A stretch of 64,000 bases of DNA from Methylocella silvestris (lineage in GTDB: Bacteria; Pseudomonadota; Alphaproteobacteria; Rhizobiales; Beijerinckiaceae), in assembly GCF_002891535.1 (NCBI RefSeq), contig NZ_PDZR01000010.1:62001-126000 (forward strand). Direction: 5' to 3'. The stretch's first letter is position 1. Each line of letters starts with the position of its first letter. Position numbers and translations under genes: made by a program. Under the pieces are notes generated by a model. It was not told the origin of the DNA. It saw only the letters and a program-made list of their open reading frames with translations, and searched no databases. This document shows positions 18,145-25,972 of this stretch, in pieces.

Positions 18145-19044
18145 TCATGCGCCGACGCCTTCGATAGCGGCGAGGCGGGTCGCCTCCGCCAGCAAGGCGC
18201 GCGAGAGCGGCGGCATCGGTTCGCGGCGCGGCAGGACGAGCCCGATCGTTTGCACCTCCTTAGGCTCGACGATCGGAATCGAACGCAGCGCCTGCGTCGA
18301 GTCGAGGATATCGGCAAAGGTTTCGGGAATGATGCTCGCCCATCGACCCGTTCTCACATGAGCGGCGAGCACCACCATCGAATTCGATTCAAGCATTGGC
18401 GTATCGTTCGACGCCGAGCTTGCGAGCATGCGGTCGATGATGCGGCGGTTCTGCATGTCCGGCGTCAGCAGGCATAGCGGGATCTTCGCCACCTCTTTCC
18501 AGGTCACGGTGGCGCGGTCGCCGAGCGGCTGATCGGCGGAGGTCAGCAAGCTATATCTCTCACGATATAGAGGCGTCGCGCGAATGTGGCCGAGTGGTTC
18601 ATTGTCGACATAGGTGAGGCCGGCGTCGATCTGCAATCCGTCGAGCATGATCAAAATCTCGCGCGAGGTTTGCGAGAGAATCGTGAAGCGCACTTGCGGG
18701 TGCTTTTCGCGGAAGGGAATGGTGAGTTTTTGCACCATGCCGAGCGCGGTCGGCACGACGGCGAGGGTCAGATGGCCGATGAGGGATTTATTCGGCGAGC
18801 GAATTTCCTGACGCATCGCGCGCGCGTCGGCGACGATGCGCTTCGCCCATTCCAGCACGCGCTCGCCATCCGGCGTCAGGCTATGGAACCGCGAGCTGCG
18901 GTTGACGAGCAGCACGCCGAGCGTTTCCTCCAACTGCTTGATGCCGGCCGACAGCGTCGGCTGGGTGACGCCGCAAAATTCCGCGGCGCGGCTGAAATTA
19001 CGCTCCCGCGCCAGCGCCAGCAGAAATTCCAGTTTCTCGATCAT
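18145..19044 (-). CDS. LysR-family transcriptional regulator
   Basis: The 299-residue protein has an N-terminal winged helix-turn-helix (FLLALARERNFSRAAEFCGV followed by TQPTLSAGIKQLEE) and a periplasmic-binding-like effector domain. Its ATG overlaps the stop of the GH15 gene by 4 bp, which ties its expression to the glycan operon and makes self-regulation or operon control likely. From memory, LysR proteins of this sequence type also occur beside formate dehydrogenase genes, so the effector need not be a sugar; I could not verify this. Confidence 0.9.
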   Translation of the reverse strand: MIEKLEFLLALARERNFSRAAEFCGVTQPTLSAGIKQLEETLGVLLVNRSSRFHSLTPDGERVLEWAKRIVADARAMRQEIRSPNKSLIGHLTLAVVPTALGMVQKLTIPFREKHPQVRFTILSQTSREILIMLDGLQIDAGLTYVDNEPLGHIRATPLYRERYSLLTSADQPLGDRATVTWKEVAKIPLCLLTPDMQNRRIIDRMLASSASNDTPMLESNSMVVLAAHVRTGRWASIIPETFADILDSTQALRSIPIVEPKEVQTIGLVLPRREPMPPLSRALLAEATRLAAIEGVGA

Positions 19045-20474
19045 GGCGAGCCGCCCTTGGCGGCGCGGATTGCCTTCGTCCGGCTGGCGTAGGCGCTAAT
19101 GAAAGCGGCGTGACTCCAGGCGAGATTTTTGGCCGATGTCTGAGCGCCGTCTGTCTGGTCGAATTGTTCCGACAGGTCGCCGCTTTCGGGCGTGTAGGCC
19201 GCGACCGTCGCCATGAACTGGTCGCCGCGCCGCATGAGCGCGTCAAAGAGATGATTGTTGTCATGTTCTGTTTCGAGCCCGAGGCGCGCCCATTGCGAGG
19301 CGTCGTCGAGCAAACCCTTCGCCACGGCCTGCGCCGCTTTGAAATAAAACTCTGCGGCGCCAAGCGTCGAGAAAAAATAGGCGCCGCCGCTGTAGTAGCG
19401 GTCACCGTCATAGCGGCCCATCGCCGGGGCGTCCGCGCCCGGCCGCGCCGCGTTGATTGCATAGGCTTTGGCGAAAAGCGCTTCGAGCCGGCCGAGGGTT
19501 GCAATCAGTCTCGAATCGCAGATGCTATGCGGGCCAGCGTTGCGCCCGGCGTGGATCACGGCGAGAACGGTTGCGATGTCGAGCTCCTTTTGCGGGCCGG
19601 AGTCCGGCGCGGCGATGCGGCTTCGCAGAAAACCGTGTGGCGCGCTCCAGAAATCATCAAGGCCCGTGGCGATCTCCTGCGCGGCGTCGAGATAGGCGCT
19701 GGCGCTCTCGATCGCGCCGCGCGACAGGAGCCATAAGCCGCCCTCGCGCAATGCCTCGCATTGGATGAGCTGCGTGTAATAATGGCGCCCGAGTTCTTCC
19801 TCCCAGATGTCGAAAGATGGCGCGCGCCAGCGGGCGAAGGTGAAGCCGAGATCGCGCAGGATGAGTTGCTCGGCCTGCTTTAGGATGTCCGGCCCTGGGC
19901 CGACAGACCGGCAGAAGCGGGCGACCGCGAGCACACGCAGCGCCGGCCCATCATGCTGCGGCCGCGACCATTTCAGGATGTCGATCGAACCGTCGGGATC
20001 GAATCTCGGTTCGCCCAGAATATCGTCGCCCGAGATGGCGAGAAGCTCTGTTTCGGGCCGCAGAAATTGCGCGAAATGTGGCTCGACCTTCCCCCGGTAA
20101 TCGCCGGCGCCCGCCAGAAACGAGCGCCCATCGAGGCCGCACAGCGTCAGGCTGAAGCCGAGGAAATCGGAAAAATGCGCCAGGCCGTCGGACCGCGCGA
20201 TTTCACCGCTCTCGATCAACAGGCGCAAGGCGTCGATGATAACGGCAGAGTCGCGCAGCCAGTGGAAGAAATAGTCGGGGTCCGGATCATAGGCGGCGAT
20301 CACCGGCGAAGCGAGGATCGAGCCCTTTACCGGCCGCACCTGCCGTCCAAAACCGCGCCGCTCCTTGACGAGATCGACCCGTGAAATGGCGCTCATCATC
20401 TTGGCGGCGGACAGCGCATATTGACGGCGCATCCAGGCATCAAGCGACGCCTGTTGTTTGAATGGCGCGCTCAT
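19041..20474 (-). CDS. Glycoside hydrolase family 15 (glucoamylase-like) protein
   Basis: The 477-residue protein forms an (alpha/alpha)6 barrel. YDPDPDYFFHWLRDSAVIID matches the GH15 substrate-site block. SFDIWEEELGRHYYTQLIQC contains the expected catalytic acid Glu, and LSEQFDQTDG near the C-terminus contains the expected base Glu. No signal peptide is visible, so it should be cytosolic. It overlaps the upstream GH144-type gene by 4 bp (ATGA) and the downstream LysR gene by 4 bp. GH15 enzymes usually release glucose from alpha-glucans. Pairing with a beta-1,2-glucanase-type enzyme is unusual, so the linkage specificity is open. Confidence 0.88.
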   Translation of the reverse strand: MSAPFKQQASLDAWMRRQYALSAAKMMSAISRVDLVKERRGFGRQVRPVKGSILASPVIAAYDPDPDYFFHWLRDSAVIIDALRLLIESGEIARSDGLAHFSDFLGFSLTLCGLDGRSFLAGAGDYRGKVEPHFAQFLRPETELLAISGDDILGEPRFDPDGSIDILKWSRPQHDGPALRVLAVARFCRSVGPGPDILKQAEQLILRDLGFTFARWRAPSFDIWEEELGRHYYTQLIQCEALREGGLWLLSRGAIESASAYLDAAQEIATGLDDFWSAPHGFLRSRIAAPDSGPQKELDIATVLAVIHAGRNAGPHSICDSRLIATLGRLEALFAKAYAINAARPGADAPAMGRYDGDRYYSGGAYFFSTLGAAEFYFKAAQAVAKGLLDDASQWARLGLETEHDNNHLFDALMRRGDQFMATVAAYTPESGDLSEQFDQTDGAQTSAKNLAWSHAAFISAYASRTKAIRAAKGGSP

Positions 20475-21733
20475 GCCTGCCCGCCAAGATGCGGCGAGCG
20501 AAAGCGCAGACGCGTGAGGCCGCGCCGGACGTCAGGATCCGACATGAACAGCCGCCACAACAATCCTGAGCGGTAGTTCTCGATCATGGCGACGATCGGC
20601 CCCTGATCGATCGCGAGATAGGTCTCCGCCCGCCATCCATGCGTTTGGCTGAAAGCGTCGACGAAGCCGAATCTTCCGAAAATCCAGTCGCCCAGATCGT
20701 CGTGAAAATGGCGCAGCGCCCGCATCGCCTCTGCCGGCGCATAGGGAAAGCTGGAGAGGGCGGCGGTTGGCGAAATGACGCCATTATCGAGGTCCGGCGC
20801 ATGCGCCATATAGCCGGCGGGATCGTCGCTCGCCGTCAATCCCCAGCTCGACGGGCCATAGCCTTTAAAGCCGCCGGGGTTCAGCACGCAGTGGGTATGG
20901 TTGATTAGCGTGTGCTGCACGTTCTGGCGCCAGTAATCGGCGTAGTCGTCGAGGAGTCCGCGCGGATCGAGCCCGCAGAATGAGTAATGCGCAAAGAACA
21001 GCGGGCCGCCGTAATCGGGCCCCAAGGGCAGATCCAGCCCGTAGAAGGTTCGGCCGTTGAGAAAAGTGCGGCTCTGCGCGTAGCCGGCATGATAGACAAT
21101 CGGATCAATGCAATAGCGCGGCGCGGCGGCGGCCAGGACATAGGCGATCAGGCATTCGTTCCAGCCGCGGACCTCGACGTCGATGCTGAAGCCATTATTC
21201 GGGCTCCAGTGCCAGGTCAGCGCCTTGCGGCCGTCTCGAGCATGCCAGCTCCACTCCACCTCGCTCCACAGCCAGGTGATATGATTGCGCAGCTCCTGTT
21301 CGACGCCGTCGGCGTCGAAATAGGCCCGCGCGCACAACAGCCCCTGAAACAGCAGCGCCGTTTCGACGAGGTCGCCGCCGTCGTCCTTGCGGCCGAAGGG
21401 GATCGTCGCGCCCGTGCGTCCGTTCATGAAATGCGGAAAAAGACCGTGGTAGGAAGGCGTGCGCTCGAGAAAGCGCACCATCGCCATGAGCCTTTCCGCC
21501 GCGGCCTCTCGCGTGACAAAGCCCCGCTCCGCCGCGACGATGATGGCAAGGACGCCGAAGCCGCTGCCGCCGATCGAAACGAGATCGTCCGTAGCGTCGT
21601 TCTCAAGCCCGGTGCGGTCACGCGCGAGGAAGCTGACGGGATGCGCCCCTTCCCAGAAAAAGTGAAAGCTCTTGCGCTGAACGAGATCGAGCAGGGCGTC
21701 ATCGGAGCGTTGCGGAGGTTTGGCGTTGGTCAT
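20471..21733 (-). CDS. GH144-type glucanase (PF10091 'glucoamylase' family), putative endo-beta-1,2-glucanase
   Basis: The 420-residue protein begins with LLDLVQRKSFHFFWEGAHPV and contains SIGGSGFGVLAIIVAAERGF, SWHARDGRKALTWHWSPNNG, NECLIAYVLAAAAPRY and PLFFAHYSFCGLDPRG. These are hallmark blocks of PF10091, now GH144. Characterised members are endo-beta-1,2-glucanases, and linkage preference here is inferred from that. There is no signal peptide, unlike many secreted members, so the substrate would have to enter the cytosol. The gene follows the fused ABC transporter by 39 bp and is coupled to the GH15 gene. Confidence 0.85.
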   Translation of the reverse strand: MTNAKPPQRSDDALLDLVQRKSFHFFWEGAHPVSFLARDRTGLENDATDDLVSIGGSGFGVLAIIVAAERGFVTREAAAERLMAMVRFLERTPSYHGLFPHFMNGRTGATIPFGRKDDGGDLVETALLFQGLLCARAYFDADGVEQELRNHITWLWSEVEWSWHARDGRKALTWHWSPNNGFSIDVEVRGWNECLIAYVLAAAAPRYCIDPIVYHAGYAQSRTFLNGRTFYGLDLPLGPDYGGPLFFAHYSFCGLDPRGLLDDYADYWRQNVQHTLINHTHCVLNPGGFKGYGPSSWGLTASDDPAGYMAHAPDLDNGVISPTAALSSFPYAPAEAMRALRHFHDDLGDWIFGRFGFVDAFSQTHGWRAETYLAIDQGPIVAMIENYRSGLLWRLFMSDPDVRRGLTRLRFRSPHLGGQA

Positions 21734-21772
21734 GGAGTTCCCCGCGATTCTTTTTCTTATTAGCGCCCCAGT

Positions 21773-23605
21773 CTAGCCAGGATAGCTGGCGTTCGTCGAT
21801 GTTGCGACGGAGACGCCGGGCGAGGTCGCAATCGCCGGCGCCTCGGGGCGGGGCGCAAGGCGTTCGCCGCCGGGATCGTCAATGAGATGGAGCACTCGGG
21901 CGAAGAAGCCGTTTTGCGTGTCGGGACGCCCGACGTTGAGGACTGTCGCTCCTGCAAGCTCGAGCGTGAAGATATCAAGCACGATCGCGCGGGTTTCCTC
22001 GTCGAGCGCGTCGAGCGCTTCGTTGATCAGGATCCAGCGCGGCTTGTGCAGCAGCAGCCGCGCGAAATGCAGGCTCTGCTGCTCATCGCCGCCAAGCTCG
22101 CGATCCCAGCGTCTCTGACTATCAAGCCCGGGCTTCAAATGAGAAAGACCAATGCGGTCGAGCGCTTCGGCGAATGCCGTTTCCGGAAAGTTCGAGACTG
22201 GCGCCGGATAGGCCAGCGTCGTGCGCAGCGATCCCGGCGGCAGATAGGGACGGCTCGACATGAACATCATTGAAGCGGGCTCCGGCACGCTGATGCGGCC
22301 GGCCCCCCAGGGCCAGAGGCCAGCGATGGCGCAGAAGAAATTGCTCCGGCCGGCGCTGGACCGCGCGATAATCAGGATGCGCTCGCCGGGCTTGATCGTG
22401 ACATGGCGCTCGCTGAGCCGCGTGCAGGTCGAAGCGGAGGAGACCCTCAAATCGTCGAACTGGATCATGTCCGACTGATTGACGACGCGATCGATGCGGC
22501 CGGTTTTGTCGCCAAGATTGTCGAGTTCGATCAGCGCGCGCCGGAAGGTCGAGATCCGGATCATCGTCGCGCGCCAGTCGGCGATCACGCTGAAATTGTC
22601 GACGAACCAGCGCAACGCCAGCTGGACCTGATTGAACGCGCCGACGACCATCATCAATCCGCCGAGCGACAGGTCGCCCGAAAAGAACCCCGGCGCCGCG
22701 ACGACGATGGGCGCGACGATGGTGAACCAGCCATAGCCGGCCGTCACCCAGGTCAGCCGCGTCACCCCCGAGACGAGGCGGCGCATGATGGAGAGCACCG
22801 GCTCGAGCTCGTTGCGCAGCCGCTGCTTCTCATCCTCTTCGCCGCCGTAGAAGGCGATGGCGTCATTGCGCTCATTGGCGCGCACGAGCGCGAAGCGAAG
22901 ATCCGCTTCGCGGCTGTAACGCTCGGCATTGATCGCGATCAGCGGTCGGCCGACGCGCCAGCTCATCCAGGACGCCGCGCCGGAATAAAGCAGCGCCGCC
23001 CAGACCATATAGCCGGGGATGTCGGCGCGGTAGCCGAACAGGGTCAGCGCGACGCCCTCGGACAGAACCCAAAGGACGCCGATGAAGCAGACGAGGAGCA
23101 GCGTCGCCTGCAACAGGCCAACGCCAAGATCGGTCGTCAGCTCGACGAGATGACGCGCGTCCTCGTGGATACGCTGATCGGGATTGACGCCAATCTCGCC
23201 CGCATTGGCGAGGCGGAAGGCTCTGGTCGGGCCAAGCCAGAGATCGATCAGATTACGCGTCAGCCGGCTGCGCAGCTTGAGCTTGGTCATCTGGTTGAGC
23301 CAGATCTGTGCGACGTTCAGGATCAGAAGGCCGCCCGCGATAAACGCGAAATTCCACAGCTGGCTAACGAATTCATCCATGTCCTTGCGTGCAAGGGCGT
23401 CATAGAAGGGATGATTCCAGGCGTTGAGCTTGATCTGACCGAAAGCGGTCGCCCCGACCACGGCGCAGAGCGCGAAGGCGAGCAGGAGAAACTGGTTGCG
23501 TTCGGGCGCAGCCATAAGCGAGCGAGCCATGCCGAGCAACTGCGTCGCGAAGCCCTCGTCGCGGAAGTTAGACTGACCCTCGTTACGGTCTTCTTGGCTC
23601 ATCAA
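21773..23605 (-). CDS. Fused ABC transporter (YddA/BclA/SbmA-like) with degenerate ATP-binding domain
   Basis: The 610-residue protein has an ABC_membrane_2/SbmA-like membrane domain (residues 30-355, including FGQIKLNAWNHPFYDALARK and LRWFVDNFSVIADWRA) and a C-terminal nucleotide-binding domain. The latter keeps the AIAGLWPWGAGRI, SRPYLPPGSLR and FARLLLHKPRW framework but has lost its catalytic residues. Walker A reads ARSSAGRSN (414-422) in place of GxSGxGKST. The Q-loop Gln is Ser451. The signature reads LGGDEQQ (504-510) in place of LSxGEQQ. Walker B reads ILINE with Asn528 for Asp. The H-loop His is Arg560. The frame is intact over its full length. It is the first gene of the operon with GH144, GH15 and LysR. 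Confidence 0.87.
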   Translation of the reverse strand: MMSQEDRNEGQSNFRDEGFATQLLGMARSLMAAPERNQFLLLAFALCAVVGATAFGQIKLNAWNHPFYDALARKDMDEFVSQLWNFAFIAGGLLILNVAQIWLNQMTKLKLRSRLTRNLIDLWLGPTRAFRLANAGEIGVNPDQRIHEDARHLVELTTDLGVGLLQATLLLVCFIGVLWVLSEGVALTLFGYRADIPGYMVWAALLYSGAASWMSWRVGRPLIAINAERYSREADLRFALVRANERNDAIAFYGGEEDEKQRLRNELEPVLSIMRRLVSGVTRLTWVTAGYGWFTIVAPIVVAAPGFFSGDLSLGGLMMVVGAFNQVQLALRWFVDNFSVIADWRATMIRISTFRRALIELDNLGDKTGRIDRVVNQSDMIQFDDLRVSSASTCTRLSERHVTIKPGERILIIARSSAGRSNFFCAIAGLWPWGAGRISVPEPASMMFMSSRPYLPPGSLRTTLAYPAPVSNFPETAFAEALDRIGLSHLKPGLDSQRRWDRELGGDEQQSLHFARLLLHKPRWILINEALDALDEETRAIVLDIFTLELAGATVLNVGRPDTQNGFFARVLHLIDDPGGERLAPRPEAPAIATSPGVSVATSTNASYPG

Positions 23606-23830
23606 ACCCGGGCGCCGCCTGTCACTGATGCTTCCTTCGATATATTAAGCGAATCGAAATAGTCACGCGCAGGTTCCGATATCCCGCCGTGCGCCCGCGC
23701 ACGGTAAATCGTTTCCAAAGCCCTTTCGCGTGTATTTTTCTGATCGATTGAGCGATCCAGCTTGGCCGCGACTGAATGAGGGCGGCTGACCGCGGCTGTT
23801 TTCCGGCCGCGGAGGAAGGGGAGGAACGGC

Positions 23831-25972
23831 GTGGCGCTCGATCTCAAGACACTTCTCGCCGCCATGACGCTGGAGGAAAAAATCGGCCAGCTCACCATGG
23901 CCGCGGGAAGCTATGCGGTCACCGGGCCAATCATTGGCGGCGACGTTGAGGCCGCCATTCGCGCCGGACGCGTTGGCAGCTTGCTCAATCTTTGGGGCGC
24001 AACGGAAATCGCCGCTATTCAAAAGATTGCGATGGAGGAGTCGCGTCTTGGCATTCCGCTGATCGTCGGCTTCGACGTTCTGCACGGCCATCGGACGATC
24101 TTTCCCATTCCGCTCGCCGAAGCCTGCGCCTTCGATCCGGCGCTGTGGAAGGCGACCGCGCGGGCCGCGGCGGGGGAGGCCGCGGCCGATGGCGTCTCCA
24201 TGGTCTTTGCGCCAATGCTCGACATCGCGCGCGATCCGCGCTGGGGCCGCATCGCTGAGGGCGCTGGCGAGGACCCCTTCGTCACATGCGAATTCGCCAA
24301 GGCCAAGATCGCCGGTTTTCAGGGCGAGGATCTCGCCGATCCGGCGGCCGTCGCCGCCGTCGCCAAGCATTTTTGCGCCTATGGCGCGGCGGAGGGCGGG
24401 CGCGACTATGCTTCCGCAGACGTGTCCGAGCGCGCTTTGCATGAAATCTATATGCCGCCTTTCGCCGCCGCGATTGAGGCCGGCTGCGCCGCCATCATGC
24501 CGGCCTTCATGGATCTCGCTGGCGTCCCCATGACCGCGCATCAACCGCTTCTGCGCGGCTGGCTGCGCGAGGCGCAGCGCTTTGAGGGCGTCATCGTTAG
24601 TGATTACAACGCGTTGGCGGAACTGATGCAGCATGGCGTCGCCGCCGATCTGACTGCGGCGGCCGTGCTGGCGCTGCGGGCGGGCGTCGACATCGACATG
24701 ATGAGTTCGGCTTACGCTGACGGCCTGCCGCAGGCTTTGGCGCGGGGGCTTGTCGCGGAGGAGGAGATCGACGCCTGCGTGCATCGCGTGCTGAAGCTGA
24801 AACAGAGACTTGGGTTGTTTGACGGCGTTCTTCGGGGCGCAAGGCGCCAAGGCGGCGACAGCGCGGAGCCGGCGCTTGCGCGCGACGCCGCGCGGCGTTC
24901 GATCGTTCTTTTGACCAATCATGGCGCGCTGCCGCTTTCCCCGACTCTACGTAAAATCGCTCTGATCGGACCTCTCGCAGAGGCCGCCGGCGAAATGGAC
25001 GGCCCCTGGGGCGCGGCGGGCGACAGAAATGACGCCGTTTCCATTCTGAACGGGTTGAAAGCCGCGCTCCCTGCAGCGGAGATTTTTTACGCGGCGGGCG
25101 TTGCCATCAAAGAAGGGGACGCGGCAAGCATTGCTGAAGCGATGCCGCTCTGCGCGGAAGCGGAGCTCATCATCCTCTGTCTTGGCGAGAGCGCCGAAAT
25201 GAGCGGGGAGGCGGCCTCGCGCGCGGAGCTTGGCCTGCCCGGGCGACAAAGGGAGCTTGCTGAAGCCGCGCTGGATCTGGGGCAAAAACTTGGGCGCCCC
25301 GTCGTCGCGCTGCTCTCGAGCGGGCGCCCGCTCACGCTGCCCTGGCTTTTCGAGCGCGCCGACGCCGTCGTGGCGACCTGGTTTCTTGGCGCCGAAGCCG
25401 GCCATGCGATCGCCGATGTCCTGACCGCCCGCTTCAATCCGGTCGGGCGCCTGGCGCTCAGCTGGCCGCGCGCGGTCGGACAGATCCCGATCTATTACGC
25501 GCGCCGGCCGACCGGCCGACCCTTCGCGGCCGAAGATCACTACACTACCAAATACATTGACTGCGCCGTGGAGCCGCAGTTTCCGTTCGGCCACGGCCTG
25601 TCTTACAGTCGGTTTTCGCTCGAAAAATTCGCCGCCGGGCGGCAGAGTTTCCGCTCCGGCGACACGCTCCATTTTTCGGTGGAGGTCCATAATCATGGGC
25701 CCTTCGACGGCGAGGCGACCGTATTTCTGTTCGCGCACGATCTCGTCGCCTCAGTGGCAAGGCCGGTGCTTGAGCTGAAGCGCTTCGGTAAAATCGCGTT
25801 GCCGGCGGGCGAGAGCGGCGCCCTATGCTTCGCGCTTGCGGCAAGCGAACTCGCCTTTCGAGGCGCCGATTTCCAGCCCTGCTTCGAGCCCGGCGCTTTC
25901 GCCTTTTCAGTTGGATTCGACGCAGATCCAAGTCGGCACAGGAAGCTGACCCTCGAAGCCTTGGAGCGCTAA
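23831..25972 (+). CDS. bglX: Glycoside hydrolase family 3 beta-glucosidase (BglX-like)
   Basis: The 713-residue protein removes terminal beta-linked glucose. Domain 1 carries PIPLAEACAFDPALWKATAR, KHFCAYGAAEGGRDY (179-193) and the nucleophile Asp258 in GVIVSDYNAL. Domain 2 and a C-terminal fibronectin III-like domain (LHFSVEVHNHGPFDGEATVF) follow. It is BglX-like, but no signal peptide is visible, so it is probably cytosolic. The start is GTG with GGGGAGG 6 bp upstream. It diverges from the ABC-GH144-GH15 operon. Together they could split beta-1,2-gluco-oligosaccharides to glucose, which is inference. Confidence 0.92.
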   Translation: MALDLKTLLAAMTLEEKIGQLTMAAGSYAVTGPIIGGDVEAAIRAGRVGSLLNLWGATEIAAIQKIAMEESRLGIPLIVGFDVLHGHRTIFPIPLAEACAFDPALWKATARAAAGEAAADGVSMVFAPMLDIARDPRWGRIAEGAGEDPFVTCEFAKAKIAGFQGEDLADPAAVAAVAKHFCAYGAAEGGRDYASADVSERALHEIYMPPFAAAIEAGCAAIMPAFMDLAGVPMTAHQPLLRGWLREAQRFEGVIVSDYNALAELMQHGVAADLTAAAVLALRAGVDIDMMSSAYADGLPQALARGLVAEEEIDACVHRVLKLKQRLGLFDGVLRGARRQGGDSAEPALARDAARRSIVLLTNHGALPLSPTLRKIALIGPLAEAAGEMDGPWGAAGDRNDAVSILNGLKAALPAAEIFYAAGVAIKEGDAASIAEAMPLCAEAELIILCLGESAEMSGEAASRAELGLPGRQRELAEAALDLGQKLGRPVVALLSSGRPLTLPWLFERADAVVATWFLGAEAGHAIADVLTARFNPVGRLALSWPRAVGQIPIYYARRPTGRPFAAEDHYTTKYIDCAVEPQFPFGHGLSYSRFSLEKFAAGRQSFRSGDTLHFSVEVHNHGPFDGEATVFLFAHDLVASVARPVLELKRFGKIALPAGESGALCFALAASELAFRGADFQPCFEPGAFAFSVGFDADPSRHRKLTLEALER

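Follow-up and report, generated by a model that had tools for sequence, protein, structure and literature searches.

SbmA/BacA proteins (SLiPT) are proton-driven transporters with an ABC-type membrane domain, and their origin is an open question; according to a speculation in a 2026 paper, this domain became detached from its nucleotide-binding domain (NBD) (PMC13316013). In BclA of Bradyrhizobium, an SbmA_BacA membrane domain is described as fused to a C-terminal NBD (PMC5567381). Here we describe a fused ABC half transporter of the exsE family, encoded on the minus strand at positions 21773..23605 of a 64,000-nucleotide stretch of Methylocella silvestris DNA (contig NZ_PDZR01000010.1, positions 62,001 to 126,000; the window). 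Every ATPase motif of its NBD is damaged, and much of the damage is shared by relatives. On balance, we read the protein as an ExsE-family half transporter whose ATPase would have been disabled before the family radiated, whose NBD would be structural and whose transport would not be driven by ATP. ExsE is a named, little examined family, and searches of open-access papers turned up no description of an inactive NBD in ExsE or related proteins.

Damage to the ATPase motifs

The frame contains 610 open codons from a TTG; codon 2 is an ATG (at 23602), which is probably the true start and would give a protein of 609 amino acids (residue numbers below are counted from the TTG). The protein has the fused architecture of the BclA/YddA type, with an ABC_membrane_2/SbmA_BacA transmembrane domain (TMD) at residues 34–362 (22520..23506, minus strand, as for all features of this gene; PF06472, E 7.7e-38; PF05992, E 2.8e-24) followed by a degenerate NBD at residues 376–575 (21881..22480), as supported by Pfam ABC_tran and AlphaFold2 (AF2) modelling. 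None of the Walker A, Walker B, Q-loop, signature and H-loop motifs is intact. According to the translation and alignment, Walker A (residues 414–421, 22343..22366) reads ARSSAGRS with Lys420 replaced by Arg, the Q-loop Gln451 (22253..22255) is replaced by Ser, the signature (residues 504–508, 22082..22096) reads LGGDE with Asp507 in place of the second Gly, Walker B (residues 524–529, 22019..22036) reads WILINE with Asp528 replaced by Asn and Glu529 retained, and the H-loop His560 (21926..21928) is replaced by Arg. All the substitutions listed in a preliminary description of the gene (G414A, G417S, K420R, Q451S, S505G, G507D, D528N and H560R) are present. Its statement that every catalytic motif had been lost is right in that each motif is damaged, but too sweeping at the level of residues, as the catalytic Glu529 together with Gly419, Ser421, Gly506 and Glu508 remain.

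The ABC_tran score of this NBD is 23.0 bits, below the curated 25-bit cut-off of Pfam, and two canonical relatives score 72.4 and 73.9 bits (L113 and the Microvirga protein L117; L and G are our numbers for loci and genomes). In the best of five AF2 models (mean pLDDT 72.5; 60–64 in the remaining four), block pLDDT is mostly 80–93 in the NBD and lower in the membrane domain; the best fold match of the model is the mycobacterial ABC transporter Rv1819c (6tqe), with a TM-score of about 0.55. By alignment, two coupling motifs in the intracellular loops (ICL) that are absent in SbmA are retained, i.e. NPDQR in ICL1 (residues 141–145, 23171..23185, where E. coli SbmA differs) and AFYGGE in ICL2 (residues 251–256, 22838..22855), and we take both to face the NBD in this fold.

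Distribution of the degenerate NBD

A profile built from 20 relatives and run against the named genomes gave at least 581 encoding stretches, of which the best 80 loci were taken. L053–L055, which duplicate G005, G004 and G013, were removed from the alignments and counts, and L016 and L119, truncated at contig ends, were omitted where a column was missing. Among the resulting 77 loci, 67 lack both the H-loop His and Gly507 and 8 keep both, the remaining two being L116, which keeps Gly507 only, and the truncated L119. On a tree of the TMD only, rooted on YddA, 90 of the 110 rows form one clade (local support 99), and the same clade was recovered on two more TMD trees (68 of 112 rows, support 98; 47 of 81 rows, support 97, mixture model), with the canonical L111/L113 adjoining it on all three. 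Since trees of the membrane domain alone give this clade, it is not defined by its own motifs. It includes sequences from Methylocapsa relatives, Mesorhizobium, Phyllobacterium, Rhizobium and others, and no NBD-less member was found among the 90 rows.

Retention within the clade differs from motif to motif. The H-loop His560 is kept in 1 of 88 rows (Arg in 59), the second signature Gly507 in 1 of 89 (Asp in 63, Glu in 10) and the Q-loop Gln451 in 16 of 90 (Arg in 53), while Walker A Lys420 is kept in 76 of 90 (Arg in the other 14), Walker B Asp528 in 82 of 89 and the catalytic Glu529 in 69 of 89. In the near-canonical relatives all six residues are retained in 10 of 10 rows; these are canonical at the counted residues and not at every letter, the signature of this sister group being LSLGQ (first Gly in 0 of 10). 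Both His and Gly507 are missing from 86 of the 90 clade rows, 73 of which also lack Gln and 12 also Lys; among these 12, Walker B Asp has been lost as well only in L001–L004, i.e. the window gene and three sisters. The earliest branches (L050p, L114, L068, L017 and L064) keep Gln and Lys without His or Gly507, and L132, beside them, additionally lacks Gln. From this branching, His560 and Gly507 would have been lost first, then the Q-loop Gln, and last, in few lineages, Walker A Lys and Walker B Asp. By parsimony, Walker A Lys changed three times over the tree; on our reading, two of these changes would fall in the degenerate clade and the third in L145/L168. Its replacement in the window lineage was separate from that in the Phyllobacterium-containing group. 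The position of the Gly507 to Asp change is presumably that of the CFTR mutation G551D.

Two members depart from the general pattern: L009, from the genus of the window, has His at the H-loop together with a damaged signature (LTRED), possibly a reversal, and L116 is the clade exception with Gly at 507. A charge swap, pairing Arg/Lys at 560 or 451 with an acidic residue at 507 or 506, was also considered. Raw counts for 560/507 in 68 rows tended in this direction, with 41 having both, 9 neither, and 13 and 5 mixed; the independent tree pairs were uninformative (on average 0.6 in the same direction, 0.4 in the opposite direction and 6.0 with no difference), leaving the swap a conjecture only.

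Orthologs in the genus and selection

Orthologs were found in 14 of the 15 genus genomes searched (G000–G014), one of them truncated at a contig end; the best match in the 15th, G008, is only distantly related, and its NBD is canonical (L178). The matched stretch is free of stops in all 14, and the frame of the window gene is intact, as had been described. The normal residue at 414, 420, 451, 505, 507, 528 and 560 is also absent in three sister genomes (L002–L004), of which L003 and L004 retain Gly417 and have Asn at 451 and Ser at 506. Since three other genomes of the genus share the losses, the substitutions are not due to chance or sequencing error.

For the window pair L001/L002, dN/dS was 0.047 in the TMD versus 0.058 in the NBD, and the medians over 11 genus members were 0.137 and 0.255, respectively, with dS above 1 and near saturation. 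The L003/L004 pair gave an NBD dN/dS of 0.99, on very few changes. The ratio of NBD dN to TMD dN ranged from 1.5 to 2.8 in seven degenerate groups; for four canonical groups serving as controls it was 1.00, 1.33, 1.45 and 1.77. The NBD is plainly still under selection, perhaps somewhat relaxed. With losses common to the sisters, low dN/dS in both domains and an NBD that is modelled as folded, these data agree with the proposal in the preliminary description that selection has kept the fold and not the hydrolysis residues. Canonical motifs in all close relatives together with relaxation over the whole gene, by which it would have recognized a decaying pseudogene, were not what the genus genomes contained.

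Identity with ExsE and published transport data

The Sinorhizobium meliloti member of the clade is flanked on one side by queE, then queD, queC and an ABC gene, and on the other by genes for a small helix-turn-helix regulator, a response regulator and a PAS protein, and by exsH. Since this gene order matches that of exsA–exsH, we take this member to be ExsE, a name resting on gene order, not annotation, in a strain other than 1021, for which the PLSDB gene table of pSymB lists nothing in this region. It lies inside the degenerate clade on two TMD trees (SH-aLRT 98 and 97). The window protein shares 50.4% identity with it over 564 residues, compared with 51–56% for 20 Phyllobacterium orthologs, 43–44% for the canonical L117, L113 and L019, and 26–32% for Phyllobacterium paralogs. 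By gene order and identity, the window protein is assigned to the ExsE family.

An ortholog at 77% identity or more is present in 20 of 20 Phyllobacterium genomes, in every case with Walker A Arg, Q-loop Arg, the signature LSDDE and H-loop Arg. Separately, Phyllobacterium L145, L168 and L169 form a further lineage with damaged NBDs, in which Walker A takes a GPNQPAGAA-like form that lacks Lys, and Arg replaces the catalytic Glu. Smith et al. 2025 (PMC12003926) report that exsE of P. zundukense complemented the gentamicin phenotype of an S. meliloti delta-bacA mutant to an intermediate degree, with little to no complementation for NCR247; the authors caution that failed complementation may stem from poor expression, and state long-chain fatty acid transport for ExsE. 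If P. zundukense ExsE resembles its 20 degenerate congeners, this gentamicin assay may already show a dead-NBD protein at work as a transporter.

Membrane domain and candidate proton sites

The SbmA glutamate ladder, E193, E203, E269, E276, E287 and E378, aligns with E148, T158, N226, E233, N244 and D343 of the window protein, the counterpart of E287 being uncertain (E256 by alignment, N244 by ungapped counting). The near-canonical relatives carry the same three ladder residues, E148, E233 and D343, and a gain of an SbmA-like ladder was rejected, as there is none beyond the residues that these relatives already have. Two other protonatable residues are special to the degenerate clade: His152, which occurs in 81 of its 90 rows and in none of the 10 near-canonical ones, and Asp118 (79 of 90 and 0 of 10), the latter being Asn in the window protein. 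His152 would lie one helical turn from Glu148, the SbmA pH-switch position aligned with E193 (E148 to H152, 23150..23164), making it a candidate proton site where both are present.

A predicted beta-1,2-glucan cluster

Positions 18145–25972 of the window are predicted to hold a conserved beta-1,2-glucan cluster. The ABC gene is followed after 39 bases by an endo-beta-1,2-glucanase-like gene (20471..21733, minus strand; PF10091, E 7e-72; 5gzh, E 1.6e-143), which we take to be of the glycoside hydrolase (GH) type GH144, and then by genes for a GH15 glucoamylase-like hydrolase (19041..20474, minus strand) and a LysR-type regulator (18145..19044, minus strand; PF03466, PF00126), each overlapping the preceding gene by 4 bases. 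A GH3 beta-glucosidase gene (BglX/Lin1840-like; 23831..25972, plus strand) is divergent. No other transporter or ABC partner was found among the six neighbour genes scanned in the window.

The ABC, glucanase, GH15 and GH3 genes occur together at 11 of 11 long-flanked loci of the genus and at 25 of 101 loci overall (104 minus three duplicates, some loci being short), including those of Chelatococcus, Microvirga alba, Aestuariivirga, Taklimakanibacter, a Methylocystis rosea plasmid and gammaproteobacterial metagenome-assembled genomes. In two of the 25 (L111 and L113) the ABC protein has a canonical NBD, which suggests that the partnership of transporter and hydrolases is older than the loss of the NBD motifs. 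No signal-like N-terminus was detected in the three hydrolases, including the glucanase-like and GH3 proteins of the window, at the window and 20 other loci (best 15-residue hydropathy 1.53), using an ad hoc hydropathy rule at chosen starts. Since the hydrolases look cytoplasmic, an importer would be needed.

Mode of transport and alternative explanations

The losses and their sharing among relatives are read from the sequences themselves, as are purifying selection, phylogeny and synteny, and with them we propose that the window protein is a half transporter with the type IV ABC fold that most probably forms a homodimer. It very probably does not hydrolyse ATP and is likely to be a transporter still. 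The dead NBD would probably be a structural module for dimerisation or gating, not a motor, and since the ICL1 and ICL2 motifs are retained, it is probably still mechanically attached. Transport would be driven by an ion gradient, or by an inward substrate gradient that intracellular hydrolysis would maintain, so that there is no need to postulate a pump. The proton-driven and substrate-gradient modes are equally open, and proton coupling as such we consider conceivable, short of probable. The likely cargo would be beta-1,2-gluco-oligosaccharides, imported as substrates for the glucanase, GH15 and GH3 enzymes in the cytoplasm, and the chances that the window protein imports glucan fragments appear about even.

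Several observations weigh against this proposal: i) the contrast between NBD and TMD rates is weak, with overlapping ranges, Phyllobacterium ExsE (1.51) falling below a canonical paralog of the same genus (1.77); ii) most of the family has retained the Lys of Walker A and the Asp and Glu of Walker B, and ATP could still bind to these members, with a regulatory role; iii) the SbmA-type ladder is incomplete in the window protein, with only two Glu (E148 and E233) and Asp343, and Glu148 is retained in only 61 of 90 clade rows; iv) the degeneracy of P. zundukense ExsE is deduced from the 20 Phyllobacterium orthologs, not from its own sequence; and v) the glucan substrate rests on gene neighbours, which were not found beside the Mesorhizobium, Phyllobacterium and Sinorhizobium members, and the direction of import is likewise deduced.

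Point ii) bears on the alternative that survives best, and which we regard as a substantial minority possibility, namely that the NBD still binds ATP, or some other nucleotide, but does not turn it over, and that it controls the gating of the transporter in the manner of the degenerate sites of CFTR or SUR1. The retention of Walker A Lys (76/90), Walker B Asp (82/89) and catalytic Glu (69/89), the purifying selection on the NBD and the retained coupling motifs would all be expected of such a protein. However, Walker A Lys was changed separately in the window lineage and the Phyllobacterium group, Walker B Asp is also lost in the window and its three sisters, and residue 507 is acidic in 73 of 89 rows, which should repel the gamma-phosphate.

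It is unlikely that the protein has given up transport and serves the glucan enzymes or the exs system as a membrane-bound sensor or scaffold. A damaged NBD, the position of the window gene at the head of a close-packed row with hydrolase and LysR genes, and the location of S. meliloti ExsE in the exs region would suit such a role, but the TMD is strongly conserved and P. zundukense exsE is reported to have altered the gentamicin sensitivity of S. meliloti (PMC12003926).

A heterodimer with a canonical half transporter, to which the window protein would contribute the degenerate site, is improbable. The window genome does encode a canonical relative (L176), and ABC heterodimers with one degenerate site are described as common, each ABC site combining Walker A/B and the Q- and H-loops from one NBD with the signature from its partner (PMC7756269). 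Here, however, both halves of the site are damaged in the same protein, so that both sites of a heterodimer should fail. Moreover, 10 of the 20 Phyllobacterium genomes have no second family member with both domains among the matches listed (some of the 10 have other ABC exporters at 24–25% identity), and the neighbour genes scanned in the window include no ABC partner.

The preliminary description had suggested an intermediate between BclA/YddA and the proton-driven SbmA/BacA, for which the shared membrane-domain families and the alignment of E148, E233 and D343 with the ladder would speak. This is now very improbable. The TMD trees place the degenerate clade apart from SbmA/BacA, and an approximately unbiased (AU) test rejected, under the model used, the constraint of the two to one clade (p = 0.00015; this and two further AU tests below used 56 rows and a quick tree without YddA). 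The SbmA question was set by the original finding, and the degenerate-clade rows for the test were picked from the trees. In addition, near-canonical relatives do not differ at the ladder positions, and the ICL1 and ICL2 motifs are present. On two TMD trees the neighbour of the long SbmA/BacA branch has weak support (58 and 69), as has the position of YddA (58). One further SbmA-like locus, L186 (G045:C8), has a 734-codon open frame of which the last ~400 codons match SbmA at 60% and the first 320 are a candidate fusion. Finally, a decaying pseudogene, for which damage to all motifs and the Pfam score below the cut-off might be cited, can be dismissed in view of the 14 stop-free genus orthologs, the dN/dS values of 0.047 and 0.058 and the replacement residues shared across the 90-row clade.

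A second clade with damaged and NBD-less members

A second YddA-like clade, from genomes of the window's family (59 searched) and one other, contains canonical members, six damaged ones (L023 and L202–L206) and five without a full NBD (L199, L200, L201, L212 and L218). The six damaged members have lost the H-loop His and have altered signatures; as they retain the second signature Gly, only the loss of His is common to this clade and the ExsE clade. The NBD-less members have at most 43 codons after the match, with ICL2 degraded and ICL1 retained, and no NBD was found in the flanks (~7 to 10 kb on each side) of L199 and L212, the two of the five examined. Four of the five nest with the six damaged members (10 rows, 96/97); L218 falls outside that group on the best tree, although a single clade of all eleven is not rejected (p = 0.34). 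In the other two AU tests, a single origin of the damaged NBDs of the ExsE clade and L023/L180/L181 (p = 6e-42) and a single NBD loss uniting SbmA/BacA with the NBD-less L180/L181 (p = 4e-5) were rejected; the groups having been named after the tree was seen, these p values serve only as guides. A gain of Glu105 in the damaged and most NBD-less members was dropped as a candidate, since the canonical L019 and L021 also have Glu105.

On these trees the second clade appears to have an origin separate from that of the window's damaged NBD, and its make-up is consistent with NBDs that first decayed and were then deleted, a route to NBD-less transporters beside the separation from the NBD put forward in the 2026 SbmA paper (PMC13316013). 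The general notion of a damaged-NBD stage thus finds an example here, in a clade with canonical, damaged and NBD-less members, although the clade of the window does not lead towards SbmA. Tentatively, TMDs of the YddA/BclA/ExsE type may have been freed from ATP several times, with His lost early in at least two cases and Walker A late, and with ExsE at a middle stage; one clade would have deleted the whole NBD together with the ICL2 motif. ExsE would then be an ABC-shaped transporter run on an ion or substrate gradient, with a nucleotide-free NBD pair perhaps held by Arg at the Q- and H-loops facing Asp at the signature Gly position.

Comparison with known systems

These data point to another possible route to ATP-independent transport in living families, in which NBD chemistry is lost while the domain is still fused, and the ExsE family may be a living example of an ATP pump becoming another type of transporter. 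Although annotated as ATP-binding, the family, including rhizobial ExsE, may not rely on ATP for transport; a fused NBD alone does not establish ATP-dependence.

Rv1819c, which is ATP-dependent, is the best solved relative of the window protein by sequence (E 7.5e-54) as well as by fold, and differs in having its signature, LSPGE, and a His at the aligned H-loop. Heterodimeric ABC exporters have also lost catalytic residues under selection, yet keep one working site, whereas both sides of the site are damaged in the window protein. SbmA/BacA proteins share a related membrane domain and transport without ATP. However, they have no NBD, a complete glutamate ladder and lost coupling helices (PMC13316013), while the window protein has a full-length degenerate NBD, and they lie far from the degenerate clade on the TMD trees. 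BclA, compared here by description only, has the same fused architecture, but ATP hydrolysis is reported to be essential for its transport (PMC12003926). S. meliloti ExsE belongs to the same clade and also has a degenerate NBD (GDPRAGKT, Q-loop Arg, LGDDE and H-loop Arg), but has not lost Walker A Lys or Walker B Asp, and it lies in the exs region without the glucan hydrolases.

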